Source: Planctomycetota bacterium (GTDB lineage Bacteria > Planctomycetota > Phycisphaerae > UBA1845 > UTPLA1). Taken from it: DNA of 64,000 bases. The position numbers and the translations under genes are program-made. Of this stretch, positions 17,704 through 32,222 are shown in pieces (position 1 is the stretch's first letter; the number at the start of each line of letters is the position of its first letter). Under the pieces are notes generated by a model. That model was not told where the DNA came from, made no database searches, and saw only the letters and a program-made list of their open reading frames with translations. The DNA lies in the NCBI GenBank assembly GCA_003576905.1, contig QEVG01000010.1, forward strand, positions 62,001-126,000. The letters run 5' to 3'.

Positions 17704-18576
17704 TCACCGGCCTCCTCCTGCGGACGGGCGAGACGCCGCGAACAGTTCCCCGAACATCCGATCCATGTGAGCCTGGATCGCGATCACGCGGTCCTCCGGC
17801 AGCCCATAGGTCGATATCCACAGGTTTACGTCGCGGCGACAGAACAGCGCCAGATCGTCGATATGCACCCGCGCCCATGCATCGTTCCAGTTGGTGACGG
17901 TCGCGCTGAAGCCGTGCGGCGGATACCAGGCGCTGACCACGCCCTCGAGCCGCTCGCCGAGCGCCGTTGTAATGGCATATCGCTCGTGCGCCGCGCGCGG
18001 CGCGGGATGTTCCACCGCGACCAGCCCCTGCCGTCCCATGACGCGGCTCCAGGCGTCCTCAACGGACACGGTGGGAATCGGAACGCGGCAGATGACGCAT
18101 CGCCGAGGCGTGCCCCGGTGGCGCTCCAGATAAAGCTTGAGGCCCCCAAGCTGAAAATCCCAGCCGCTTACGGTGCCGTCGTACTGTCCGTCCCACGACG
18201 CTTCCGAGGAGAATCCGGAATGAACCAGACGGAGCACCGTCTCTCCCCCGCGCCCCTCCAGGTAATAGTCCAGTGCCACCTGATAAGGCACCTCGAAGGG
18301 AATGCCCGGCTCACCCGGCTTTGCCGCGGGCGTCGGCTCCATGTAAATGAGCCGAAGGTGCCGGTTAGGCTTCCAGGCAGCCACCGGGGTGTGGAACTGG
18401 TGTTCGTTCTTCCATGACATCCAGATCGCTCCGCCTTCGCCGGGCGTCACTTTCGCCTCAAGCGGAAACCACCGGCTCAGCTCCTCGGAATCCGTCAGCG
18501 CCTTCCAGACCGCATCGACGGGCGCGAGGATGTGAATCTCTTTATCGATGGAACGCGGCGGTTTTTTCTCGCCCAT
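17704..18576 (-). CDS. SRPBCC (AHSA1-like) protein, first copy
   Basis: 290 residues. The N-terminal AHSA1-like domain (DKEIHILAPVDAVWKAL, then DSEELSRWFPLEAKV, to GWDFQLGGLKLYLERH near residue 150) is followed by a C-terminal domain of about 130 residues shared with the gene at 16717. Proteins of this family often sit beside an ArsR-type repressor, as here: the regulator's stop lies six bases before this start. The C-terminal part may be a second, degenerate SRPBCC fold (paired features FSATVTNWNDAWARVHI and WISTYGLPEDRV). Ligand and function are unknown. Tandem duplication of this architecture is the notable point. Confidence 0.87.
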   Translation of the reverse strand: MGEKKPPRSIDKEIHILAPVDAVWKALTDSEELSRWFPLEAKVTPGEGGAIWMSWKNEHQFHTPVAAWKPNRHLRLIYMEPTPAAKPGEPGIPFEVPYQVALDYYLEGRGGETVLRLVHSGFSSEASWDGQYDGTVSGWDFQLGGLKLYLERHRGTPRRCVICRVPIPTVSVEDAWSRVMGRQGLVAVEHPAPRAAHERYAITTALGERLEGVVSAWYPPHGFSATVTNWNDAWARVHIDDLALFCRRDVNLWISTYGLPEDRVIAIQAHMDRMFGELFAASRPSAGGGR

Positions 18577-18582
18577 GGTGGG

Positions 18583-19224
18583 TTACTCCATTCGCGTCGA
18601 GGACGTCTTCGCATCGTTGTCATCGTCCTCAATCTTGGTGATCGCCGGGTATGCCCCCAGAAAGAAGCGGAACAACCGCCCGTCCGCCGTTTTTTCATCG
18701 TGATACTTCGCGGCCAGATGGGCCATGAACTGCGATAGCTCTTCGGCGAACGCGTTTCGGTCGGCGGCGGTGGCGAACCGCACATCGGCCTGGAGATTTA
18801 GAGTTGCAAGCTTTTTTCCCGCCTTCGCCGCTCTTCGCTGAAGAACCGCCAGATCACGAATCGTCCGCGCGGCGACCGCCACCATATACGACGCCGAAAA
18901 CCGGTCGCCGATCTGGCTCGGGTCAGCCGCCATGTCCCCGAGCGCTTCCGGGCTAATGAGATACGACCGCGCGGTTGCGCGAATAAGCCGTTCGATGCAG
19001 TTGCCCTTCTTGCGCCGCCCGACACATGAGACGAGCCCCGCTTTCTCTAGCTCGCGAAGGTGATAATTGATCTTCTGCCGCGGAATCGACATATCCCGCG
19101 CGAGCGAACTGGCCGAGTTCGTCTCCTCCAGTCGCCGAAGCAGCTTCAGCCTCAACGGGTGGAGCAGGGCCGCCGCCGCGTCGGCTCCCTTTACAAGTTG
19201 GACGGCAGATGCGGAGTTTGCCAT
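18583..19224 (-). CDS. ArsR-type winged-helix regulator of the SRPBCC operon
   Basis: 213 residues from ATG 19224. The winged helix covers about residues 12-85 (LLHPLRLKLLRRLEE, ARDMSIPRQKINYHLREL, KAGLVSCVGRRKKGN), followed by a long helical C-terminal region (about 90-195) of unknown function. No ArsR metal-binding cysteine motif (CxC) is present, so metal sensing is unlikely; an organic ligand for the downstream SRPBCC proteins is a reasonable guess. ATG 19251 and TTG 19290 are in-frame alternatives, but the region upstream holds a promoter-like element and palindrome (19275-19303) that would overlap them. First gene of the three-gene minus-strand operon. Confidence 0.82.
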   Translation of the reverse strand: MANSASAVQLVKGADAAAALLHPLRLKLLRRLEETNSASSLARDMSIPRQKINYHLRELEKAGLVSCVGRRKKGNCIERLIRATARSYLISPEALGDMAADPSQIGDRFSASYMVAVAARTIRDLAVLQRRAAKAGKKLATLNLQADVRFATAADRNAFAEELSQFMAHLAAKYHDEKTADGRLFRFFLGAYPAITKIEDDDNDAKTSSTRME

Positions 19225-19274
19225 TGGCGTAGGGTCCAATCGTTCGCACATTCGCGAGAAACGTAATGCGGACC

Positions 19275-19303
19275 ACGATAATGCCGACAAATAATTTTGT
19301 CAA
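19275..19303 (-). promoter_or_regulatory. Candidate promoter and operator of the ArsR-SRPBCC operon
   Basis: On the minus strand TTGACA (19298-19303) and TATCGT (19275-19280) are separated by 17 bases. The perfect inverted repeat GACAAA-ATTA-TTTGTC (19286-19301) overlaps the -35 and the spacer. A second TTGACA lies at 19316-19321. The whole block is AT-rich against a GC-rich background. Autoregulation by the ArsR-type protein is inferred. Confidence 0.55.
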
Positions 19304-20754: not shown

Positions 20755-20890
20755 GCGGACCGGTCAGTGCACTGGACCCTTGGGTTCGCCGAACGCGAAT
20801 GTTAAGATGCGCAGGGGCCCGATAAGTCGCCGACCCTGCCGGACGACTCGATTCGAGCCCCAGGGGCAAGGACCTGGAGCAGGAAGTGAC

Positions 20891-22390
20891 ATGAGCCTCC
20901 TCAAACGACTTGCACAACAGGTAGGATTGCGCGACGAAGCTCGGGCGGCGGAGGCCGTCCTTTCGCGCCGAAAGCTGCTGTTCGGCGGCCTGTCATCTCT
21001 CGCGGCCCTCTCGCCGTCGGTTGCACGGGCCGCCCCGCGCCCAAGCGCCAATCGCTTTCTGGTCGACCGCCTGACGTTCGGCTGGACGGAAGCAGAACAG
21101 CTTCTCGCGGATACCCTGGGCTATCACGGATATCTCGAGTACCACTTGAATCCCGCGGCAATCAACGACGCCGACTGCGACGCGCGCGTCGCCGTCTACA
21201 ACCGCCTGAACTGGTCGTCCAACGGCCTCTACGACTCCCTGCCGCAGATCACCATGAACCAGGTGATCGAATCGACGATTGTCCGGGCCGTTTACAGCAA
21301 GCGGCAGCTCTTTGAGCGCGTCGTCGAATTCTGGACCGATCACTTCAATATCGAGATGATGAAGAGCTTCAACCAGTGGCTCTTTCCCGTCTGGATGCGC
21401 GATGTCATCCGCATGCACGCAATGGGTACATTCCCGCAGTTGCTCGCGGCCTCGGCGCAAAGCGCCACCATGATGTTCTATCTCGACAACGACACGAGCG
21501 TGGTCGGCCACCCCAACGAGAACTACGCCCGGGAGCTGATGGAACTTCACAGCATGGGCGTCGGCAGCGGCTACTCGCAGCAGGACGTCGAGGAAGTTGC
21601 CCGCTGCCTGACGGGCTGGGGCGCGCACCACGGTTTCGGCGAAGCGAGCACTTTCGAGTTTGAATACGAGCCGAACAAGCACGACAACGGCCCGAAGGTC
21701 GTGCTGGGAACGAACATTCCGGCCGGCGGCGGATTCAACGACGGGCTCACGGTTCTGAGCATCCTCGGAGCGCACCCGGCTACGGCGGCGTTCATCTCGC
21801 GGAAGATGTGCCAGAGATTCTGGAGTTACGACCCGCCGCAGGCCCTGGTTGATGCCGTGACGAATACCTACCTGGCGACCAACGGCGACATCAAGGCGAT
21901 GCTTCGCACGCTCTTTACCACGCTCGATCCGGACACCGCCGGAAATAAGCTCAAACGCCCCTTCCACTTTTTTGTCAGTGCGATGCGCGCGACCAAGACC
22001 GAAATCGCCGCCAATCCGACCGGCACGGGCAGTCCGTTGCGGGACCAGTTCAAGGCGGCCGGGCACGAGCCGTTCCAGTGGGGCCCGCCGGACGGCTACC
22101 CCGACCGAGTCGACGCCTGGGCGGACGCGGTCCTCGCCCGCTGGAATTTCGCGGCCAGTCTGACCAATCACAATATCTCCAACGCGCTGATCAACATTCC
22201 CGCGTTTCTCCAGGGCGCGACGACCCAGCAGCAGATCGCCGACCGCATGGACCAGGCGATCTTCGGGGGGACCATGCCCACGGAGGAAAAGGCGGTGATT
22301 CTGAACACGCTCGGCGCATCCCCGAACAACCGCACGATTCAGGATGCCCTTGGTTTGGCGCTCTCCGCGCCGAGCTATCAATGGTACTGA
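20891..22390 (+). CDS. DUF1800 family exported protein
   Basis: 499 residues from ATG 20891 (AGGA upstream at suitable spacing). The N-terminus carries a Tat-like signal SRRKLLFGGLSS (residues 25-36), followed by the DUF1800 domain over nearly the whole length: FLVDRLTFGWTEAE near the start, then FWTDHFNIEM, NENYARELMELHSMG and EEVARCLTGWG in the middle. These motifs are hallmarks of the family, whose biochemical role is still unsettled. In many bacteria DUF1800 genes are directly followed by DUF1501 genes, as here with a 56-base gap, so the two products probably work together outside the cytoplasm. Unlike its partner, it has no dockerin-like tail. Confidence 0.9.
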   Translation: MSLLKRLAQQVGLRDEARAAEAVLSRRKLLFGGLSSLAALSPSVARAAPRPSANRFLVDRLTFGWTEAEQLLADTLGYHGYLEYHLNPAAINDADCDARVAVYNRLNWSSNGLYDSLPQITMNQVIESTIVRAVYSKRQLFERVVEFWTDHFNIEMMKSFNQWLFPVWMRDVIRMHAMGTFPQLLAASAQSATMMFYLDNDTSVVGHPNENYARELMELHSMGVGSGYSQQDVEEVARCLTGWGAHHGFGEASTFEFEYEPNKHDNGPKVVLGTNIPAGGGFNDGLTVLSILGAHPATAAFISRKMCQRFWSYDPPQALVDAVTNTYLATNGDIKAMLRTLFTTLDPDTAGNKLKRPFHFFVSAMRATKTEIAANPTGTGSPLRDQFKAAGHEPFQWGPPDGYPDRVDAWADAVLARWNFAASLTNHNISNALINIPAFLQGATTQQQIADRMDQAIFGGTMPTEEKAVILNTLGASPNNRTIQDALGLALSAPSYQWY

Positions 22391-22446
22391 TCCCCGCCGA
22401 CGAAGTCTTTTCTTGCTGTCGGCGCCGCCCTGATTGAGGATGGATC

Positions 22447-23928
22447 ATGAGCAAGTCAGAATGTCACGGTTGCAGCGAATACCTGGAGCTCTCGCGCCGG
22501 CAGTTTCTCGGCGTTTCCGGGGCCGGCGTCGTCGCCGCGAGCCTGCCGGCCTGGCTGCCTCGCGTGGCCCTCGCGGGCGAATTCTGCTCTTCGCGCGACG
22601 TGATCGTTTCGATCTTTCTGCGCGGCGCGGCCGATGCGATGACTTTCTGCGCCCCGTTCGGAGATGACGCCTACTACGATGCCCGGCCGACACTCTCCAT
22701 TCCCCGTCCGGACAGCGGGCATCCCATGGCGGCCCTGGACCTGGACGGCTTTTTCGGCATGCCGCCCTACATGTCGCCGCTGATGCCTGCCTACGCCAAC
22801 GGCGATCTTCTCTTTGTGCACGCCTGCGGCTCCACGGACACTTCGCGCTCGCATTTCGACGCGATGAAGCTGATGGAGTTCGCCGACCCCACGAATCCGG
22901 GCGCTGTGACCGGCTGGCTCGGACGGCACCTCGCCTCCACGATGGCCGTCGTCCCCGGAAACCCGCTGCGCGCCGTGGCCACGGAGTTCGGCCTGATGCG
23001 AACGCTCGTCGGCGCGCCGGACGCTCTGCCGATTCCACGGTTCGAGACGTTCAATCTTCTCGGCTATCCCGGCACCGTCGCCGCGCGGCGACAGGCGTTG
23101 ACGTCAATGTACAACGCAACCCCGGATCCGCTGCGCACAGCGGCACAAACCACTCAGGCGGTCATCGACCTGCTTGCGACGATCGACTTCATCGGCTACC
23201 AGCCCGCGGGCAGCGCCGTGTACCCGGTCTCGCCGTTCGGCACGTCGCTCAAGGCCTCGGCCGCGCTGATCAAGTCGGACATCGGGGTTGAGGCGATCGG
23301 CATCGACATTGAAGGCTGGGATCACCATATCGACATGGGGCCGTTCGACGGAATCCTGGCCCAGAAGCTGACCGACCTTGCCGCCGGCCTCGCCGCGTTT
23401 CATGCCGATCTCTCCGCCGGAAACGGCCGGAACTTCGTCGTCGTCGTCATGTCCGAGTTCGGTCGCCGGGTGGCGGAAAACGGGAGCGACGGCACCGATC
23501 ACGGCCACGGAAACGCGATGATCGTGCTCGGCAATCGCATCGCCGGAGGCCGCGTCCTGACCCAGTGGCCCGGCCTGCAACCCGAACAGCGCTTCGAGGG
23601 TCGCGACCTGGCCATCACGATTGACTATCGCGACGTACTGGCCGAGATCGTCCAGAACCGCCTCGCCAATGGAAACCTCGGGCTCATCTTCCCGAACTTC
23701 ACGCCGACGTTCCGCGGCGTCACCGAGAGTTGCTCCAAGGGAGACCTGAACTGTGACGGTGGCGTGACACCCGACGACGTCCCGGGCTTCGCAACGGCTC
23801 TGATGGATGAAGCGGCCTATCGCGGTGCCAATCCCGGTTGCGACCCCCTGAACGCGGACATCAACGGCGACGGGGCCATCGACGGACGCGACATTCAGGG
23901 ATTCACACAGCAGATCCTTGGCGAATAG
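22447..23928 (+). CDS. DUF1501 family exported protein with dockerin-like tail
   Basis: 493 residues. A Tat signal (LSRRQFLGVSGAGVV, Arg17-Arg18) leads into a DUF1501 domain (VIVSIFLRGAADAMTF, HACGSTDTSRSHFDA, EGWDHHIDMG, FVVVVMSEFGRRVAENGS, DHGHGNAMIVLG). That fold is related to the alkaline phosphatase/sulfatase superfamily, but its activity is undefined. The C-terminal 65 residues are a dockerin-like pair (DLNCDGGVTPDDVPGF, DINGDGAIDGRDIQGF), a fusion that would attach it to a surface partner. ATG 22447 has a GAGG element upstream. It is the second gene of the DUF1800/DUF1501 pair. Confidence 0.9.
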   Translation: MSKSECHGCSEYLELSRRQFLGVSGAGVVAASLPAWLPRVALAGEFCSSRDVIVSIFLRGAADAMTFCAPFGDDAYYDARPTLSIPRPDSGHPMAALDLDGFFGMPPYMSPLMPAYANGDLLFVHACGSTDTSRSHFDAMKLMEFADPTNPGAVTGWLGRHLASTMAVVPGNPLRAVATEFGLMRTLVGAPDALPIPRFETFNLLGYPGTVAARRQALTSMYNATPDPLRTAAQTTQAVIDLLATIDFIGYQPAGSAVYPVSPFGTSLKASAALIKSDIGVEAIGIDIEGWDHHIDMGPFDGILAQKLTDLAAGLAAFHADLSAGNGRNFVVVVMSEFGRRVAENGSDGTDHGHGNAMIVLGNRIAGGRVLTQWPGLQPEQRFEGRDLAITIDYRDVLAEIVQNRLANGNLGLIFPNFTPTFRGVTESCSKGDLNCDGGVTPDDVPGFATALMDEAAYRGANPGCDPLNADINGDGAIDGRDIQGFTQQILGE

Positions 23929-23995
23929 AATCCCCGCCGTTTGCCGTTTTCGACGTGAAGCGTACCCGCGCCACGCGGAGAGGCCTCGTGTTCCG

Positions 23996-24511
23996 TCATT
24001 CCTGATTCCCTCGAATTCCAGGGCCCTTGCCTGGCCGCGTAATCTGCGGGCCGATCGCGCGGCCCGACAGTGATTGACCCAGTCCGACGCCCGATTCGCA
24101 AAGCGGCGTCGGACGCGTCGGATCCGAGATCAGTTCTTCGATTGTCGACCCGGCGAATGCATCCTCAACGCTTGCCATAGCCTCGTCCAGACGTCGGTGA
24201 AGCGGGCACAGCTTCGCACCGTGTGACTTGAGATCCAAAGGGCACTTGTGAATCCGCTGGATCGGATCGACTGAGTTAATCACCTCAAGCACCGAAATCT
24301 TGGATGGCGGTCGCGTAAGCTGGAATCCGCCCCGCCGTCCCGGCTGGGACACCACAAGCCCCGACCGTGCGAGGGCTTGCAGCACCTTTGACATGTATCC
24401 GGCGGGCACATGCGTCGCCGCTGCGATATGCGGCGTACCCAGTGAGGTTTCGGGATGTCCCGCGAGCCAGACGATGGCTCGCAGTGCATACTCGGCCGTT
24501 TGCGAGATCAT
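23996..24511 (-). CDS. Rrf2-family iron-sulfur-type regulator next to nitric oxide reductase
   Basis: 171 residues from ATG 24511 (GGGAG eight bases upstream). The Rrf2 winged helix occupies residues 1-85: ISQTAEYALRAIVWLA, YMSKVLQALARSGLV, then the wing RGGFQL. The cluster-binding loop reads Cys90-x5-Ser96-x5-Cys102-PL-His105. IscR and NsrR use three cysteines with exactly this 6-6 spacing, and IscR adds a His three residues after the last one, so the middle ligand is Ser here. It is divergent from the nitric oxide reductase gene, with a perfect palindrome in that promoter. An NsrR-like repressor of NO detoxification is the best guess. Whether it holds a cluster is open. Confidence 0.87.
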   Translation of the reverse strand: MISQTAEYALRAIVWLAGHPETSLGTPHIAAATHVPAGYMSKVLQALARSGLVVSQPGRRGGFQLTRPPSKISVLEVINSVDPIQRIHKCPLDLKSHGAKLCPLHRRLDEAMASVEDAFAGSTIEELISDPTRPTPLCESGVGLGQSLSGRAIGPQITRPGKGPGIRGNQE

Positions 24512-24691
24512 GGCATCACTCCCGAACCACAAGGACGCTCGTCCGCAGACGCGCAAATGAATGCATTGGCTCCGGAGCAGACACATCCGGCAACCGGCTG
24601 GCCCTGACCTTCGACTGAGCTCCCTGATTAAACCTCCACAATCCCCAAAATCTATCCCTTGACATCCATATTTTATGTGCTAATCTACAAA

Positions 24692-24720
24692 TAGTCAACC
24701 TAGATATCTAGGTTTATAAT
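24692..24720 (+). promoter_or_regulatory. Nitric oxide reductase promoter with 18-bp operator palindrome
   Basis: A perfect -10 TATAAT (24715-24720) and a weak -35 TAGTCA (24692-24697), 17 bases apart. The spacer is filled by a perfect palindrome AACCTAGATATCTAGGTT (24697-24714), ideally placed for repression. A further TTGACA (24659-24664) with TAATCT 16 bases on could be a second promoter. The likely ligand protein is the divergent Rrf2 regulator (inferred). Confidence 0.7.
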
Positions 24721-24784
24721 ATAGAGTTCTCACATAGATGAACGTTACTAATTGCCAGGACTCAAGTTACATCGGAGGCTTCAA

Positions 24785-27079
24785 ATGACGAACAAGAGGC
24801 TTTGGTTCGGGCTTATCGCTGTGATTGTCGGGTCGTTCGCCGTGCTCGGGTACTTCGGACGTGAAATCTATCGGCATGCCCCCCCTATTCCCGAGCGCGT
24901 CGTAACAACCGACGGCACCATTCTCTTTGAGGCCCAGGACATCCGCGATGGACAGAACGTCTGGCAGTCCATGGGAGGCCAGGAGATCGGAAGCGTCTGG
25001 GGCCATGGCGCGTACCTGGCGCCCGACTGGTCAGCGGATTGGCTCCATCGCGAAGCCGTCGCCTTGCTCAACGTCTGGTCGGAGCGGCAGTATGGCGCGG
25101 AGTTTGAGAAGCTCGATGCGGACAAGCAGGCCTCACTTCAGGCCGCTTTGAAGCGCGAAATGCGCACCAACACACACGACCCGTCCACGGGGACACTTAC
25201 CGTTTCGGTCGATCGCGCCGAGGCCATGCGCCGAATCGCCGCCCACTATGCATCGTTGTTCGGCTCCGATCCGGCTCTCGCCGACCTCCGCGAGGCGTAT
25301 GCCATTCCGGCGAACACGATTACTGATGCAAGTCGCCAGGAGCAGATGAACGCGTTCTTCTTCTGGGCGGCATGGTCTTGCGTGACCAATCGTCCCGGCA
25401 GCGAAAACTCCTACACCAATAACTGGCCGCCGGATGAGCTTCTGGGCAATGAGCCGACCGGGTCGATCGTGCTCTGGTCCATCATCAGCTTTGTGCTGCT
25501 CCTCGCCGGCATCGCGGCACTTGCATGGCACTTTGCGGTACAGCGAGGCAAGGAAGAAGCCCCGCACAAGCTCCCGTCCTCGGATCCCCTCGTCTCGCTG
25601 AAGCCGACACCCTCAATGCGGGCAACGCTTAAGTACTTTTGGGTGGTCGTCGCGTTGATTCTCGTTCAGGTCGGTCTCGGCATCGTCACCGCACACTACG
25701 GCGTGGAAGGCGACGGCTTTTACGGAATACCGCTTGCAAAATGGCTTCCGTATTCCGTTACCCGCACGTGGCACGTGCAACTCGGCATTTTCTGGATCGC
25801 GACTGCCTGGCTGGCGACCGGTCTCTTTGTCGCGCCGGCGGTCTCGGGTCACGAGCCGAAGTATCAGAAGCTCGGCGTCAACGTGCTCTTCGGGTGCCTG
25901 CTCATCATCGTCGTGGGATCCATGGCCGGACAGTGGCTTAGCATTCAGCAGCGACTGGGCTTCACCGCCGGCTTCTGGTTCGGCCACCAAGGATACGAAT
26001 ACGTCGACCTGGGGCGATTCTGGCAGCTCTTCCTCTTCGCCGGCCTCTTCATCTGGCTCGCCCTCATGGGCCGTGCCATGTGGCCCGCGCTGCGGAAGCC
26101 GGGCGAACACCGCTCCATGCTGAGCCTTTTCTTTATCGCCTCCGCGGCGATCGCTCTCTTTTACGGCGCGGGACTGATGTGGGGCCGCCAGACGCACCTG
26201 GCGATCGCTGAATACTGGCGATGGTGGGTCGTTCACCTGTGGGTCGAGGGCTTCTTTGAGGTGTTTGCCACGGTCGTCATTGCCTTCCTGTTTACGCGGA
26301 TGGGGCTGCTTCGCACGTCCACCGCGACCAGCGCAGTACTATTCTCGACGACGATCTTCCTTTCCGGCGGCATCATCGGGACATTCCACCACCTCTACTT
26401 CACGGGCACCCCCACCGCGGTACTGGCGCTTGGGGCTTCGTTCAGCGCCCTTGAAGTCGTCCCCCTGACCCTGATCGGATTCGAGGTCCATGAAAGCCTG
26501 ACGCTCAGCCGGGCGAAACCCTGGATCGCCGCGTACAAATGGCCGATTTACTTTTTCGTCGGCGTCGCGTTCTGGAATCTCGTCGGCGCAGGTCTGTTCG
26601 GTTTTCTCATCAACCCCCCCATCGCCCTCTACTACATGCAGGGCCTCAACACGACCCCGGTCCATGGCCACGCGGCGCTCTTCGGCGTGTACGGCATGCT
26701 CGGCATCGGGCTCATGCTCTTCTGCCTCAAGGGCCTTGCCGTGCAAAAAACGTGGCGAACCGGGGCCCTGGCGTTCGCATTCTGGTGCATCAACATCGGG
26801 CTTCTCCTGATGGTCACCATCAGCCTCCTGCCCGTTGGCCTGCTTCAGACGCGGGCCAGCATTGAAAACGGCATGTGGTACGCACGGTCGGCCGAGTTCC
26901 TGCAAACGCCGCTGATGGAGAACCTCCGGTGGTTGCGCGTCGTCGGTGACACCATTTTCGTTTTCGGCGTCGCTGCGCTTGCCTGGTTTGTCATCGGGCT
27001 CAAGACCGGCTGGTCGCTCCTTCCCGAGAGTGCCACCACTGACGCACCCGATGGACTGGCGGCGCCCCGCCCCGTCTGA
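24785..27079 (+). CDS. norB: Quinol-dependent nitric oxide reductase (qNOR)
   Basis: 764 residues from ATG 24785 (GGAGG six bases upstream). The protein reduces two NO to N2O with electrons from quinol, in the cytoplasmic membrane. It has the qNOR layout: an N-terminal membrane helix (LWFGLIAVIVGSFAVLGYF), a roughly 200-residue extracytoplasmic NorC-like domain without a CxxCH haem motif, then the 12-helix NorB core. Expected ligands are present: His330 (TWHVQLG) and His629 for haem b, His627 for haem b3, and His484, His535 and His536 for the FeB site, with Glu488 in HLWVEGFFEVF. It stands alone, with no denitrification genes nearby, which suits detoxification of external NO. A terminator follows at 27105. 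Confidence 0.95.
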   Translation: MTNKRLWFGLIAVIVGSFAVLGYFGREIYRHAPPIPERVVTTDGTILFEAQDIRDGQNVWQSMGGQEIGSVWGHGAYLAPDWSADWLHREAVALLNVWSERQYGAEFEKLDADKQASLQAALKREMRTNTHDPSTGTLTVSVDRAEAMRRIAAHYASLFGSDPALADLREAYAIPANTITDASRQEQMNAFFFWAAWSCVTNRPGSENSYTNNWPPDELLGNEPTGSIVLWSIISFVLLLAGIAALAWHFAVQRGKEEAPHKLPSSDPLVSLKPTPSMRATLKYFWVVVALILVQVGLGIVTAHYGVEGDGFYGIPLAKWLPYSVTRTWHVQLGIFWIATAWLATGLFVAPAVSGHEPKYQKLGVNVLFGCLLIIVVGSMAGQWLSIQQRLGFTAGFWFGHQGYEYVDLGRFWQLFLFAGLFIWLALMGRAMWPALRKPGEHRSMLSLFFIASAAIALFYGAGLMWGRQTHLAIAEYWRWWVVHLWVEGFFEVFATVVIAFLFTRMGLLRTSTATSAVLFSTTIFLSGGIIGTFHHLYFTGTPTAVLALGASFSALEVVPLTLIGFEVHESLTLSRAKPWIAAYKWPIYFFVGVAFWNLVGAGLFGFLINPPIALYYMQGLNTTPVHGHAALFGVYGMLGIGLMLFCLKGLAVQKTWRTGALAFAFWCINIGLLLMVTISLLPVGLLQTRASIENGMWYARSAEFLQTPLMENLRWLRVVGDTIFVFGVAALAWFVIGLKTGWSLLPESATTDAPDGLAAPRPV

Positions 27080-27104
27080 CATGGATCAAGCGACCTGTTT
27101 CAAG

Positions 27105-27138
27105 GCCCGCCGAGCGCCCGAGCGTTCGGCGGGTCTTT
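27105..27138 (+). terminator. Rho-independent terminator after the nitric oxide reductase gene
   Basis: CCCGCCGA (27105-27112) pairs with TCGGCGGG (27125-27132) around a 12-base loop and is followed by TCTTTT. It lies 26 bases after the stop codon. Confidence 0.8.
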
Positions 27139-27424
27139 TCCATGGGGCGCCTTGATAATCCCTATGAGCCCCGCCGCCGCAGCACGCCGCGCGTCTTTTT
27201 TCGCATTGCACAACAAGAAAACCTGTCGGTACCGCTGGGTGTCGCAGCCCCAGTATCCATCGAAATGCCCGATTCCCGCACTTGCCCCTTTGTATTTGGC
27301 GAATCCCCGGTGCCAGGCCTTCGTACTATTCGCCCAGCTGCGCCCCCTGCCCGCCCCATGTCCCAGCGGATTCTTGCCCGACGGCCTTGCTTATTGAGCG
27401 ATTCTCCACGGCCTTATCAGTCTT
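27139..27424. other. Non-coding stretch upstream of the operator pair
   Basis: About 285 bases with several short open frames but none with a domain, signal peptide or ribosome site. No repeat or RNA structure stands out. The regulatory region proper starts at 27425. Confidence 0.35.
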
Positions 27425-27435
27425 GAAACTGTTTC
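27425..27435. promoter_or_regulatory. LacI-type operator copy 1 (PEP-CTERM gene, distal)
   Basis: Perfect palindrome GAAACTGTTTC. It is one of seven copies of TGAAACWGTTTCA-like sequence between 27.4 and 37.3 kb, all between genes. Its centre is 20 bases from copy 2, two helical turns. Binding by the LacI-family protein at 37366 is inferred. Confidence 0.65.
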
Positions 27436-27444
27436 CTGAGCGAT

Positions 27445-27455
27445 GAAACTGTTTT
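27445..27455. promoter_or_regulatory. LacI-type operator copy 2 (PEP-CTERM gene, proximal)
   Basis: GAAACTGTTTT, one mismatch from the palindrome, on the same face of the helix as copy 1. Both lie upstream of the predicted promoter, with centres near -94 and -74. That position suits activation or looping rather than simple blocking. Confidence 0.6.
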
Positions 27456-27487
27456 TGCAAAAACGCGCGCAAACCGGCCCAAACTCA

Positions 27488-27517
27488 TTGAAAACGGCGG
27501 CTCGCGTCAGGTATCAT
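27488..27517 (+). promoter_or_regulatory. Candidate promoter of the 27587 PEP-CTERM gene
   Basis: TTGAAA (27488-27493) and TATCAT (27512-27517) with an 18-base spacer give a predicted start near 27524, 63 bases before the ATG. Confidence 0.5.
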
Positions 27518-27586
27518 GATGACACTGGCACGACGTATTTGCTACACGTGGTTTGAGCCAGCGGAAATTTTGGAGGAGATAAGACA

Positions 27587-28258
27587 ATGCGAAAAATTCT
27601 GATGACGCTGTCGATCGGCCTGCTGCTCAGCTCGACAGCCGGCGCCGCCATTGTTGATGTGGGTAACTCGACCGCCCCGTGGCTCGGCTTCATGAACGTC
27701 TTTGAGCTGCCTTCCAACGGAGGTGGCTACGTGTTCGGCAGCCCGTGGGCCGTTGGAGATCTTGTCGCCACTTTTGACGACGGCAACGACAAGCTGACAC
27801 TTTCGCCAAACTCGATTGGCGATTCCAATCCGTTCTGGTACATCGGCGGCGGCGGACCGGGCGCAGCCGGCAACAAGATCATGGAAGCCAACCTGTACCA
27901 GGAATACACCGACGTCTACAACGGCCAGACACTGACCTTCCAGGGCAGCGTGCTTTCGAACACTTTCACGTCGGCCCACTCGGCGTCCATCTTCATCCGC
28001 GATTTTGCGTCGGACTACTCTTCGTTCAACCAGACAATTGTGCCGCTGACCGCCGGCCCCTTCAGCATTAGCCTTGCGACCGATCCCGGCGCGGGCCGCC
28101 ACGTGCAGTTCGGGTTTCAGGTTGTCGGCGTCAACGTGTGGATTACGGACGTCGAGCCGTACGGCAACGCGATGATCACGACAATCCCTGAGCCGGCAAC
28201 CCTGGCTCTTCTCGGCTTCGGCGCACTGGCCATGATTCGCCGCCGGCGCCACGCCTGA
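27587..28258 (+). CDS. PEP-CTERM sorting-domain protein in the beta-glucan locus
   Basis: 223 residues with a signal peptide (KILMTLSIGLLLSSTAGA) and a C-terminal PEP-CTERM signal (IPEPATLALLGFGALAM, then RRRRHA). The mature part (about 20-195) is beta-rich with no catalytic motif. It has the general look of carbohydrate-binding or lectin-like PEP-CTERM proteins (phrases GQTLTFQGSVLSN, HVQFGFQVVGVNVWITD). The ribosome site GGAGGAG lies about ten bases before the ATG. The upstream operator pair shared with the glycoside hydrolases suggests it is made together with them, perhaps to bind glucan at the surface (inferred). A terminator follows 40 bases after the stop. The exosortase needed for its processing is not in this window. 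Confidence 0.85.
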   Translation: MRKILMTLSIGLLLSSTAGAAIVDVGNSTAPWLGFMNVFELPSNGGGYVFGSPWAVGDLVATFDDGNDKLTLSPNSIGDSNPFWYIGGGGPGAAGNKIMEANLYQEYTDVYNGQTLTFQGSVLSNTFTSAHSASIFIRDFASDYSSFNQTIVPLTAGPFSISLATDPGAGRHVQFGFQVVGVNVWITDVEPYGNAMITTIPEPATLALLGFGALAMIRRRRHA

Positions 28259-28297
28259 TTGTTGCGAGTGACTACGTCAGAGTACGTGAACTAGGAG

Positions 28298-28335
28298 GCC
28301 GCCGAGTGTAGAACGCTTGGCGGCTTCTCTTTTTT
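28298..28335 (+). terminator. Rho-independent terminator after the PEP-CTERM gene
   Basis: GCCGCCGAG (28298-28306) pairs with CTTGGCGGC (28316-28324) with one G-T pair and a 9-base loop, followed by TTCTCTTTTTT. Confidence 0.85.
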
Positions 28336-28450
28336 GGGGGGCGAATCCGCTTCAGCGAATCCGCGGGCGCGGGCCCAGACACGACGCCTTCGCCCCATTC
28401 CACCGCGCTCGATGCTCCCAGGCAGCACGGAAAGGCCATCGGATCAGTGC

Positions 28451-30559
28451 CTATTGGCCGGTCAATGTGTCGACGAATCCGGCCACATCCAGGCCGTTCA
28501 GGCTTCCGGACTGGTTGACATCCGCCCCGCTGCTCGAGCAGCCTGGGTGCAGCGCGTCGAACAGCGCCGCATCCAGCAGGGCTTCGACAAAGAGCGGCAC
28601 ATCCGACTCGTTCACAACGGCGTCACAGTTCATGTCGCCGGGCACTGGTCCGCCCGGGGGGATCGCCGCACCGCCGTACATGAACGCCACATCGTCAATC
28701 TGAATGTTTGTTATCGGCCCGTTCGTGCCCAGCAATTCAAAAAGCTGGCTCACTTCCGACAAATCGACGGCATCCGAGAAATGCGACATCGGGATCTCGA
28801 CCACATGCCACTGCCCGTCCCGGACAAAACCGTACGGGTCGCTTCCGTTTGCAAAGGTGATCCACTTCTGTCCGATCTCGTTTACGTTGCCGCTCTTCAT
28901 TCCGATGCGAAACGTCACTGTCGATGTCGTCTTCATGGCGAATCGCAGCAGGCTCTCAGGATACCGGAACGCGGTCAGATTGTGCTTGACGTTCGGCGTG
29001 AAGGCCGCCCCGAACCACGTCGGGCCGGGCGTCGATGTCAATCCGATCGACGCGGAACCCTCGTACGGCAGCGGCGAACCGGGCATGGGCATAAGCGTGT
29101 TCTCCCAAACATAGAACTGCCCGTCGGCGCCGAGGGTCAGTTGACCCGCCGTCGCGTGGGCCGGCGTTTCGGTGAAGACGCCGTAGTTCCCGTGTTGAGG
29201 TGCCGGGCGTGCGACGCTGGGTGTCCAATAGACATTATCAATTGAGAAGTTGATCGGGGCGGCCGGCGCCTGGCCGCGCACCATGAAGATCTGCTTGATC
29301 GTGTGGAAGTCGATGTTGCCGAAACGGTTCAGCGGAATGACCACCTCGTGCCAGTTGCCGTCGCGGACCAGGCCGAATTCCTCTCCCCCGCTTACAAGAT
29401 CCAGCCAGCCCTCGCCGGCCGCGGAGCTGGCGATCCCAAAGCCAATCGTATGGTGCGTCGTCGTCTTCATGTGGAAATGAAGGAGACCGTCGGAATAGTT
29501 GCTCATGTTTCGGTCGGCCAGACAAAAGGCCCCCATGCCGAACCAGTTGCCGGGACCGGCATTGAACGACCACGCCTCGCTGCCTTCGAACGGCGTGACC
29601 GGAACGGAGGCGAGGTTGTTCCATACATATAGCTCGGTATCCGTGCCGTACGTCACCGAATTGCCCACAGGCGTGGTCTCGGTGAAAACGCCGAACGCCC
29701 CGCTCTCGGCCGAATCGTCACCAAAATAAAGCTCTGTGTGCGCATTGTCGTACAGTCGGATCCAGTCCACCTCGAGCCTGGCCGGAAACGGCGCGGTGAT
29801 AAGCGCGGGATCCGTAATCTGAACGAAGTTCACCCCGCCCACCGCCAGGTTTACGAGAATGAAAAACGGGCGATGGAACTCTTCCAGCGAGTTCGCCTCG
29901 ATCGTGCTGATGTCGATCGCCCAATACGGAGTCCCGTCCAGAGAAGCCGTGATCAATGTCGGCGTCCATGACACGGAATAGATGTGAAACGCTCCATTCA
30001 AGTTCACGGGCGACGTCGTGCTTCCGCTGTAGCCCGCGTAGGAGCCCATGAAATCCCAGTGCGCTGCGGCGGAAACCTTGCGGTTGACCGTGCCGGCGGC
30101 AATAGAAGCGCTGTCCCCCATCTCGAGAACGTCAATCTCTCCGCATCGGGGCCACGTGATCTGCCCGATATTGCGTCCGAGCAGCCAGAAGGCAGGCCAG
30201 AGACCGTTCTGCAGATCGGGCACCTTGATCCGTGCTTCGAGCGTACCATACTTGAATGCAAACCGACCATGGGTTTTCAATCGTGCCGATGTGAACTGTT
30301 TGCCCTCGTAGTTCTCGCGTAATGCCCGGATAACAAGGACTCCGTTTTCAATGAATACATTCTCCGGTCGTGCGGTGTAGAACTGGAGTTCCGCGTTTCC
30401 AAACCCGCTCCCCCCGACATCGAAGGTCCACGAACCGCTGTCGATAGGGGGGCCATCGAACTCCTCGCTCCAGACAAGGGACTGCGAACGTGCCGGTGCG
30501 GCAAGAACCAGAACGACGGGCAACGTGGCAACAACGAAGCGGATCGATTGCCGGCTCAT
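28451..30559 (-). CDS. Secreted GH16 beta-glucanase (laminarinase-like) with duplicated C-terminal module and dockerin-like tail
   Basis: 702 residues. After a signal peptide (to about residue 25), the GH16 domain spans about 28-275 with the catalytic motif EIDVLE: Glu141 nucleophile, Asp143, Glu146 acid/base. GH16 enzymes of this type hydrolyse beta-1,3 or mixed beta-1,3/1,4 glucans such as laminarin. Two copies of a roughly 160-residue beta-sandwich module follow. Each begins GVFTETxP and contains YVWxN and an FEGS or YEGS phrase; they are likely carbohydrate-binding. The tail is dockerin-like (DMNCDAVVNESDVPLF, DVNQSGSLNGLDVAGF). The ribosome site GGGGAG precedes the ATG. A LacI-type operator lies about 105 bases upstream of the start. 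The GH16 at 30738 is a separate, non-identical enzyme. Confidence 0.93.
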   Translation of the reverse strand: MSRQSIRFVVATLPVVLVLAAPARSQSLVWSEEFDGPPIDSGSWTFDVGGSGFGNAELQFYTARPENVFIENGVLVIRALRENYEGKQFTSARLKTHGRFAFKYGTLEARIKVPDLQNGLWPAFWLLGRNIGQITWPRCGEIDVLEMGDSASIAAGTVNRKVSAAAHWDFMGSYAGYSGSTTSPVNLNGAFHIYSVSWTPTLITASLDGTPYWAIDISTIEANSLEEFHRPFFILVNLAVGGVNFVQITDPALITAPFPARLEVDWIRLYDNAHTELYFGDDSAESGAFGVFTETTPVGNSVTYGTDTELYVWNNLASVPVTPFEGSEAWSFNAGPGNWFGMGAFCLADRNMSNYSDGLLHFHMKTTTHHTIGFGIASSAAGEGWLDLVSGGEEFGLVRDGNWHEVVIPLNRFGNIDFHTIKQIFMVRGQAPAAPINFSIDNVYWTPSVARPAPQHGNYGVFTETPAHATAGQLTLGADGQFYVWENTLMPMPGSPLPYEGSASIGLTSTPGPTWFGAAFTPNVKHNLTAFRYPESLLRFAMKTTSTVTFRIGMKSGNVNEIGQKWITFANGSDPYGFVRDGQWHVVEIPMSHFSDAVDLSEVSQLFELLGTNGPITNIQIDDVAFMYGGAAIPPGGPVPGDMNCDAVVNESDVPLFVEALLDAALFDALHPGCSSSGADVNQSGSLNGLDVAGFVDTLTGQ

Positions 30560-30737: not shown

Positions 30738-32222
30738 TCAAGGCGTTTCGCCGGCAAGGAGAATGTCGACGAACACCGGCAGGTCGCTCATGTCCGCCCC
30801 CGGCACTGTGTCCACGTCGGCGGCACACTGGCTTCGGGCGCCCACCGACGCCGGAGAAAGCAGCGTCTCCGTGAATCCCGCGATATCGGCCCCGTCCAGA
30901 AGCCCGTCGTCATTCATGTCGCCCTTTACGCACTGGAGGGTAAAGCGGAACCATGACACGTTGTATTCCTGCGCGGTCCCTGAGTTGGACAGGCGCATGA
31001 CCTGAACGCCTTCGTCGAGCGACGCGGTGGCATTGACCGTTGTCCAGTTCTGCCAACCCCCCGTCACTGGCACGGTTACCATGCCGGTCTTGTTGATGCC
31101 GTCAAATGCCAGATGAAATGACCCGCCGGTGGATTGTGACGCGACGCGCGCCTCCACGAGATAAACTCCGGCCGCCTCGACATTGACGGTGTACTCGGTC
31201 CACTCATTCGCGCACATCCAGCCGATGTTGAAGCCGCCCTCGCCGGCCGCCTGAACATCGACTTCTTCCGACGGACGATACGCGCCGCCGTTGTTGCTCG
31301 GGTCGCAATCGAAGTACGCCAGTGCCGGGCCGCCGTCGTCGTAGTCCTCCGCCTCGATCTGGCCGGGTATCGGCCACGGCGTTCCTCCGTAAGGCTCCTG
31401 GGACGCGACATCCTGATACACCCGGACCCAATCCACTTCCATGACCTGCGGAAAAACACTGGAGCCGTTCGGACTGCCTGGGAAGTTTCCTCCGACGGCG
31501 ACATTCAACAGGAAGTGAAACGGGTGATCGAACGGTGCGTTGTCGTCGCCGGGTGCCGCGTCGCTGTACCACTGGTTGCTGCCGCGCGTGCAGTAGGCAA
31601 CGTCATCGACGTACCAACGGAGATAGGTCGGCGTCCATTCCAATGAGAATGTGTGGAAGTCGAGGGAGTAATTGGTGCCGTTGGATCGCGTGCAGGTCAG
31701 GTGGGTGTTATTGGGCCACTGCCCTCCGAAGTGAATCGACCCGTAAATCGTCGTGGCGATGTTGACCGACTCCATGATGTCGATCTCGCCACTGGCCGCC
31801 CACCCGCCATAGGGCGAATTGGTCGGAAGCATCCAAAATGCAGGCCAGATTCCCTGTGTCGATGGCAGCTTGATCCGCGCCTCCATCCGCCCGTACTGGA
31901 ACTCAGCACGGTTCATGGTGCGCAGCCGCGCGGATGTGTAGTTGCGCCCGCCGTAGTTCTCCTGCCGCGCGATGATCTTCAGCGTTCCGTTCGACACCAC
32001 CGCGTTTTCCGGACGCGCCGTGTAGTATTGCAGTTCGTTGTTTCCCCAGCCGGGAATGCCATAGTCCGAGCCGTCGCCGATCATGAACTCCCAGTTCGCG
32101 GGGTTCACGGAGGTGCCGTCGAATTCGTCAGACCAGACGAGCGTATCCGCGTCTGCCGGCGCGACCCCGCAAAGGGCCGCCCAAAGCCCGGCGACCAACA
32201 TTCCGCCACGCCAACTCTCCAT
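30738..32222 (-). CDS. Secreted GH16 beta-glucanase with CBM6-like module and dockerin-like tail
   Basis: 494 residues. A signal peptide (to about 26) precedes the GH16 domain (about 28-275) with motif EIDIME: Glu146 nucleophile, Asp148, Glu151. A CBM6-like domain follows at about 285-430 (PGQIEAEDYDDGG, EWTEYTVNVEAAGVYLVEARVAS, GVQVMRLSNSG); CBM6 modules commonly bind beta-1,3-glucan or xylan ends. The C-terminal 60 residues are dockerin-like (DMNDDGLLDGADIAGF and a degenerate second half). The combination GH16-CBM6 is typical of laminarinases. GGGAG sits six bases before the ATG. It is on the same strand as the other GH16 gene but has its own upstream operator at 32418, about 200 bases before the start, and a TATAAT at 32280-32285. 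Confidence 0.93.
   Translation of the reverse strand: MESWRGGMLVAGLWAALCGVAPADADTLVWSDEFDGTSVNPANWEFMIGDGSDYGIPGWGNNELQYYTARPENAVVSNGTLKIIARQENYGGRNYTSARLRTMNRAEFQYGRMEARIKLPSTQGIWPAFWMLPTNSPYGGWAASGEIDIMESVNIATTIYGSIHFGGQWPNNTHLTCTRSNGTNYSLDFHTFSLEWTPTYLRWYVDDVAYCTRGSNQWYSDAAPGDDNAPFDHPFHFLLNVAVGGNFPGSPNGSSVFPQVMEVDWVRVYQDVASQEPYGGTPWPIPGQIEAEDYDDGGPALAYFDCDPSNNGGAYRPSEEVDVQAAGEGGFNIGWMCANEWTEYTVNVEAAGVYLVEARVASQSTGGSFHLAFDGINKTGMVTVPVTGGWQNWTTVNATASLDEGVQVMRLSNSGTAQEYNVSWFRFTLQCVKGDMNDDGLLDGADIAGFTETLLSPASVGARSQCAADVDTVPGADMSDLPVFVDILLAGETP

Follow-up and report, generated by a model that had tools for sequence, protein, structure and literature searches.

A conserved palindrome between norZ and a divergent rrf2 gene: candidate operator of a putative nitric oxide-responsive switch in a planctomycete

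What is the role of a perfect palindrome lying between a nitric oxide reductase gene (norZ) and a divergently oriented gene encoding an Rrf2-type regulator (rrf2), and which protein might recognize it? We addressed this question in a 64-kb stretch of planctomycete DNA (the window), for which a sequence-only reading had reported a perfect 18-bp palindrome in the rrf2-norZ intergenic region; the element, designated O2, is exactly that and occupies positions 24697-24714. We consider it probable that O2 is the downstream operator of an autoregulated, self-contained norZ/rrf2 switch, governed by an Rrf2 repressor that NO relieves. The features on which the argument depends are collected in the table.

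Table. Features of the norZ-rrf2 region, numbered by position in the window
Feature	Position	Strand	Remark
rrf2 gene, 171-aa Rrf2 regulator	23996..24511	-	ATG at 24511-24509
Codons of the predicted metal-site loop C90-X6-H97-X4-C102-X2-H105	24197..24244	-	
Codons of wing residues P57-G58-R59-R60	24332..24343	-	part that goes with operator type
O1, putative degenerate second operator TCCCTTGACATCCATATT	24655..24672	.	overlaps norZ -35; 5 mismatches to O2 motif
Predicted norZ promoter, -35 TTGACA	24659..24664	+	conserved as TTGAYRTCC in 43/91 loci
Predicted rrf2 promoter, -10 TAAAAT (ATTTTA on +), 17-bp spacer	24670..24675	-	
Predicted norZ promoter, -10 TAATCT, 16-bp spacer	24681..24686	+	TAnnnT at 16-18 bp in 38/43 loci
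Promoter of the sequence-only reading, TAGTCA-17-TATAAT	24692..24720	+	possibly a weak secondary promoter
Predicted rrf2 promoter, -35 TTGACT (AGTCAA on +)	24693..24698	-	overlaps first two O2 bases
O2, perfect 18-bp palindrome AACCTAGATATCTAGGTT	24697..24714	.	candidate Rrf2 operator
norZ, single-subunit quinol-type nitric oxide reductase, 764 aa	24785..27079	+	divergent from rrf2

O2 is the sole perfect palindrome of at least 18 bp in the window. Since 0.39 such sequences are expected at the composition of the window, its perfection alone is weak evidence, and we take its significance to come from its position and from its conservation in relatives. The motif is unique in the window even when up to three mismatches are allowed, and its 14-bp core CCTAGATATCTAGG has a single exact occurrence in the 4.7-Mb genome (65 contigs, 97% complete), where four other places match with two mismatches. 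Searches of this genome with the core, and with the 18-mer at up to one mismatch (which returned only the place in the window), revealed no further regulon members.

The Rrf2 protein was used to search 120 related genomes, of which 68 gave a match at E <= 1e-15; some of these matches, at 31-41% identity, are probably sister Rrf2 proteins. A search of genome contigs with the window protein as a single-sequence query returned 59 pattern matches, none of them confirmed, and an alignment query returned 520 relatives. Upstream DNA was compared for 30 loci from the related genomes and 80 of the 520 relatives, and removal of 19 duplicates from these 110 loci left 91 distinct ones. Within 300 bp upstream of rrf2, the motif AACCTRGANNTCYAGGTT is present with 0-2 mismatches in 17 of the 91 loci, compared with a best match of at least four mismatches in all 455 dinucleotide shuffles of the same regions. 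Two of the 17 (L045 and L084) represent the O1 element described below, leaving O2 itself in 15/91 loci at up to two mismatches. Exact copies of AACCTRGANNTCYAGGTT occur at eight places in the 120 genomes, and all eight lie beside an rrf2 gene of the same Rrf2 branch. When one mismatch is tolerated there is no real overall excess, because the 24 places found compare with 20 for the reversed control; three of the 16 one-mismatch places adjoin an rrf2 gene of the clade, and the remaining 13 look like chance (the core NO gene set was found near none of the 11 of these 13 that were inspected). The sequence-only reading had named absence of conservation in relatives as the outcome that would speak against it, and the palindrome turned out to be conserved.

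Among 294 genomes, 50 contained a norZ match, and 30 loci were used, the window included; a linked Rrf2 gene within 1.5 kb was present in five of the 30, again counting the window. Of the relatives among the 10 loci viewed in the correct orientation, none showed the palindrome. The four norZ-linked Rrf2 relatives (L007, L009, L026 and L029) contain no O2, their best matches having 4-6 mismatches. Two of them, L007 and L009, carry the most similar norZ genes outside the order (72-75% identical) together with a linked Rrf2 gene, yet lack O2.

The product of norZ is assigned to the qNor type by its matches to PF22085 (248.5 bits) and PF00115 (203.8 bits) and by its layout as a single-chain NorB with a fused N-terminal domain, in which inspection by eye showed no CXXCH haem-c motif; NCBIfam models gave no match to it. 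Enzymes of this type convert NO into the greenhouse gas N2O. Core NO genes were detected by tblastn in the flanks of 58 of the 91 loci (flank length 1.5-3.5 kb, or shorter where a contig ended) and not in the other 33, some of the matches being only 23-46% identical, and in 43/91 loci such a gene is divergent from rrf2 within 450 bp. By locus count they comprise qNor (35), RIC/ScdA (RIC/YtfE; 29), NnrS (18), protoglobin (7) and a truncated haemoglobin-like fragment (1); for RIC, NnrS and protoglobin the Pfam assignment was checked with a single representative of each, and the last fragment, which has no Pfam match, bears a name of our own. At 1.5-kb flanks, NO genes accompany 24 of 30 clade loci versus none of 34 Rrf2 loci from the same lineage that fall outside the clade, the latter being high-scoring Pfam Rrf2 matches rather than a random draw, and one of them showing only cytochrome-c similarity. 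Taken with the eight exact motif copies, all beside clade rrf2 genes, this comparison upholds the proposed tie of the palindrome to a divergent Rrf2 gene and to NO genes.

Locus L073, which belongs to a complete-genome record, has norZ divergent from rrf2. At six loci (L096, L111, L131, L135, L137 and L143) the immediate divergent neighbour of the clade rrf2 is a protoglobin gene, which suggests that protoglobins may be NO-responsive targets. The 97%-complete genome of the window gave no match to RIC (PF04405) or NirK (TIGR02376), and the switch may therefore serve detoxification there rather than denitrification. Several other genes surround the pair. A DUF1800 and DUF1501 gene pair (20780-22390 and 22447-23928, plus strand) ends just beyond the 3' end of rrf2, the DUF1501 protein having a dockerin-like tail that scores below the Pfam cut-off. 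Genes for an AHSA1/SRPBCC protein and an HTH_20/ArsR-like regulator stand in tandem (17704-18576 and 18583-19290, minus strand) and form a second compact regulator-effector pair. Two large ORFs (28451-30559 and 30738-32222, minus strand) resemble, from a reading of their translations, secreted glucanase-type proteins with dockerin-like tails.

Membership of the regulator in the Rrf2 superfamily is indicated by PF02082 (96.5 bits, cut-off 30) and TIGR00738 (103.6 bits, cut-off 73.3). Its AF2 model has a pLDDT of 81.9; block means exceed 90 over residues 1-130, apart from 91-100 (82), and the top structural matches are CymR, IscR, RsrR and NsrR. Residues E7, R11, C90, H97, C102 and H105 are invariant in all 91 branch proteins. 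In a loop alignment free of gaps with NsrR of Streptomyces coelicolor (ScNsrR; numbering by count), E7 is aligned with D8, C90 with C93 and C102 with C105, and the position of the middle cysteine, C99, is taken by the variable residue 96 (S96 here), next to the invariant H97; the middle cysteine is absent throughout the branch. Three sister Rrf2 proteins of the same genome have the pattern C-X6/7-C-X5-C-X2-H, and since their middle cysteine falls at H97 or one residue from it, a histidine seems to stand in for this cysteine in the branch. An Fe-S cluster is not assured, because only two of the three usual cysteines remain. We also observed that C138, in a C-terminal 'PLC' motif just beyond the Rrf2 domain, is conserved in 76/91 relatives, and it could be another ligand or a thiol switch.

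IscR is an Rrf2 regulator with a Cys3His1 [2Fe-2S] cluster. Our protein is similar to it in fold (Z 16.8) and retains, as H105, the histidine that follows the last cysteine after two residues, which corresponds to the IscR ligand His107; unlike IscR it lacks the middle cysteine, scores 36.8 bits against the equivalog model where 207.55 are needed, and has NO genes as many of its neighbours. In RsrR, the [2Fe-2S] redox sensor of Streptomyces venezuelae, the ligand histidine is H12. The RsrR ligand set of two cysteines, Glu8 and His12 is found here in part: the cysteine pair and the N-terminal glutamate are kept (30% identity in the fold list), whereas the His12 position is R11 in 91/91 proteins, the conserved histidines are H97 and H105, and the target genes differ. 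RsrR demonstrates that a 2Fe-2S cluster can be ligated by two cysteines together with Glu and His (PMC11138216), and it likewise has a pair of operators located between divergently oriented genes (PMC5015018).

NsrR is a well-known regulator, as are its operators and three cysteines (PMC1274295, PMC4432287, PMC5748679, PMC5015018, PMC11138216 and PMC9338935). Our system resembles NsrR of E. coli and S. coelicolor in the Rrf2 fold, in a putative operator over target promoters, in NO-detoxification genes as neighbours, in cysteines at the C93 and C105 positions and in an acidic residue at the D8 position (E7 in 91/91, a probable ligand). It differs in having two loop cysteines rather than three, with S96 at the C99 position followed by invariant H97, and in scoring 53.3 bits against the NCBIfam NsrR equivalog (cut-off 182). 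The NO-detoxification targets characteristic of NsrR are matched by gene neighbourhood only (58/91 loci, 0/34 controls). The NsrR operator given in PMC1274295, gATGyAT-N5-ATrCATc, has a best match of 5/14 mismatches in region 24601-24784, as in shuffles; the operator of S. coelicolor NsrR is an 11-1-11 repeat (PMC4432287). Another architectural parallel, described in PMC5748679, is NsrR-Th of the Thermus thermophilus nic cluster, where an Rrf2 regulator lies opposite a nor operon with an ScdA-domain gene nearby and a short palindrome; NsrR-Th differs in its three cysteines, in its palindrome CTTGACCNNGGTCATGG (best 6/15 mismatches in the window region) and in being a reported activator of norC whose target is the norCBH operon, not norZ. 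The best reading of these comparisons is a switch that would work like NsrR but departs from it in cysteines, operator and model scores.

The likeness to RsrR gives rise to an alternative that retains the same operator and repressor: the direct signal might be redox state, Fe-S status or another reactive nitrogen species, with norZ induced indirectly. The ligand set (two cysteines, a glutamate at RsrR E8/NsrR D8 and an extra histidine) resembles RsrR as much as NsrR, RsrR is the best phmmer match (30% identity among the structures matched, a value that D. shibae IscR equals over a shorter alignment), and 33/91 loci have no core NO gene in the flank. We nevertheless regard this alternative as unlikely, because the neighbours found across several phyla are NO-specific enzymes or proteins repairing NO damage, and none of the 34 sister Rrf2 loci has them.

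Where O2 lies relative to the promoters bears on how a repressor might act. Two sigma-70 promoters of opposite direction are predicted to interleave between norZ and rrf2, because both a TTGACA-TAnnnT promoter and a reverse promoter containing GTCAA are conserved in the aligned loci. The element TTGA[CT][AG]TCC is found upstream in 43 of the 91 loci, the other 48 being without TTGAYRTCC. It is followed at 16-18 bp by TAnnnT in 38/43 loci (shuffle mean 2.7), GTCAA is offset by 32-35 bp from the first base of TTGACA in 24/43 (shuffle mean 1.0), and a whole reverse promoter, with GTCAA as opposite-strand -35 and a -10 at 16-18 bp, is present in 21/43 (shuffle mean 0.06); these means come from mononucleotide shuffles, and the loci are not independent. 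Since the best-conserved norZ promoter is this upstream TTGACA/TAATCT pair, O2 would lie downstream of its -10 and span roughly +4 to +21, counted from the predicted norZ start near 24693; the rrf2 start is predicted near 24663.

The sequence-only reading had instead let the palindrome fill the spacer between a -35 hexamer and an exact TATAAT. Both hexamers do exist: TAGTCA (24692-24697) and TATAAT (24715-24720), separated by 17 bp, match 10 of 12 consensus bases, the -35 matching 4/6. A TAnnnT directly after the palindrome also occurs in L038, L041, L044, L051 and L069, and as the resulting 6/15 O2 loci compare with 0.3 expected, it is not mere chance. On these grounds one could suppose that a repressor at O2 blocks this promoter, either by itself or along with the upstream one. 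The arrangement is, however, missing from 9/15 O2 loci; in the six that have it, the best -35 available reaches only 2-4 of 6 consensus bases; the proposed -35 overlaps the conserved GTCAA, which can be read as the -35 of the opposite promoter; and the upstream TTGACA promoter is conserved in 38/43 loci. We therefore judge this explanation quite unlikely, and the earlier claim stands as to the presence of the hexamers but not as to the main promoter; TAGTCA/TATAAT is possibly a weak second norZ promoter.

Placement of O2 downstream of the norZ -10, as we prefer, is accompanied by signs of a second site, O1. Columns around TTGACATCC in the 43 loci form a looser inverted repeat, AnnTGGACC-TTGACATCCA-nnTT, in which columns 0-8 are largely fixed by the search pattern itself, and conservation also extends, for example, to A at -9 (38/43) and T at +13 (40/43). 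The centres of O1 and O2 are 42 bp apart in the window, and the spacing is 42, 41, 40 or 38 bp in 11 of the 12 measurable loci among the 15 with O2, the twelfth value (22) being an artefact of a second TTGA. Taking into account that 38-42 bp is close to four helical turns, the repressor could occupy the same DNA face at O1 and O2.

A further connection between palindrome and regulator is found in the wing of the Rrf2 protein. Arginines R60 of ScNsrR and R59 of EcIscR contact minor-groove atoms near the operator ends (Table 2 of PMC9338935). The residue aligned with R60 is P57 in the window protein, and arginine stands at position 57 in 68/91 branch proteins. The palindrome tracks a change of the wing from R-G-L to [PS]-G-R: this form occurs in 21/91 proteins, and O2 is present in 15 of these 21 loci versus 0 of the other 70 (Fisher p 1e-12). 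Outside the set, the wings of the four norZ-linked Rrf2 proteins read RGI, RGL, SGP and PGP, and none of these loci has O2. All 21 [PS]GR proteins form one group on a quick tree, with all 15 O2 loci inside it (SH-aLRT 92, with 80 for the H-type group; neither value reaches 95); the pairing of operator and wing is therefore best regarded as a shared derived feature and not as 15 independent events. Other operator forms were noted near norZ upstream of rrf2 in sister groups: TGGATATCTGnnnnCAGATATCCA-like in L045, L050 and L052, and TATTTGGACCCAAATA-like in L055, L060, L061, L063 and L064, with a TGG...CCA spacing that differs between the two.

This covariation also bears on whether O2 might be bound by another regulator, for example HcpR or another member of the CRP/FNR family, or else a global factor, with Rrf2 acting elsewhere. 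HcpR-type TTGACnnnnGTCAA boxes are placed upstream of norB in Synechocystis in PMC1274295, and the cyanobacterial HcpR box has a borderline match of 2/10 mismatches in region 24601-24784, a quality reached by 12/200 shuffles. Boxes of DNR, FNR, delta-type HcpR and Thermus NsrR match the same region no better than shuffles, and known NO/FNR boxes (NsrR, DNR, FNR) were accordingly rejected as candidates; the proposed difference of the palindrome from the best-known NsrR, DNR and FNR boxes is confirmed. As the eight exact copies in 120 genomes all lie beside the Rrf2 branch and the operator tracks the Rrf2 wing, we find recognition by another regulator very improbable.

That O2 is a chance palindrome, of which about 0.4 would be expected per window, or an RNA hairpin or terminator element, as one terminator-like prediction on the minus strand (0.3 expected) might suggest, is hardly credible, since its sequence and position are conserved in relatives, which contradicts chance, and the T-rich tail behind the stem is only loose. 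A terminator or riboswitch was rejected as a candidate on account of that tail and of the lack of an Rfam match at 22000-29000.

The reading we prefer, an NO-relieved Rrf2 repressor acting at O2, rests on sequence, conservation, architecture, association with NO genes, invariant residues and the predicted Rrf2 fold; from these we infer binding, repression, transcription starts, the cluster and NO as the signal. An Rrf2 dimer would bind O2, which adjoins the rrf2 -35 and lies shortly after the predicted norZ start, and probably also O1, at a distance of about four helical turns from O2 and overlapping both the norZ -35 and the region where rrf2 transcription would start. In the absence of NO, it would repress both interleaved sigma-70 promoters. 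NO would attack the metal centre of Rrf2, which is probably an Fe-S cluster with C90, C102, H97 and/or H105, and E7 from the other subunit as its ligands; Rrf2 would then release the DNA, and norZ and rrf2 would be transcribed until NO is removed. The case for O2 as an operator appears strong and the repressor mechanism likely, and NO sensing by a histidine-containing cluster is plausible.

To our knowledge, NO-responsive control has been little described outside the well-studied phyla. The Rrf2 branch is widespread and apparently unstudied. By record title (titles of metagenome-assembled genomes can be wrong) it occurs in Planctomycetota, Melainabacteria, Acidobacteriota, Krumholzibacteriota, Sumerlaeota, Spirochaetota, Armatimonadota, Nitrospinota and Lentisphaerota, and one more title says Proteobacteria. 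A search of the open-access literature, with subscription journals mostly outside its coverage, found no published work on the branch; NsrR homologues detected by BLAST in magnetotactic Planctomycetota are mentioned in PMC11014258. More tentatively, and at less than an even chance, the branch may represent an uncharacterised family of NO sensors, found by record title in at least eight phyla, whose middle cluster cysteine has given way to histidine. The resulting cluster would be of a Cys2-His(1-2)-Glu, Rieske- or RsrR-like type, interleaved divergent promoters would be controlled from a pair of operators on the same face of the DNA, and the change of wing from R-G-L to [PS]-G-R would have rewired the operator.

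The locus combines a defined candidate operator with a compact two-gene switch, and its regulator represents a branch in which the pattern of putative ligands is altered and fully invariant. One purified protein and a short DNA fragment could test whether an Rrf2 regulator that lacks the middle cysteine reads NO.
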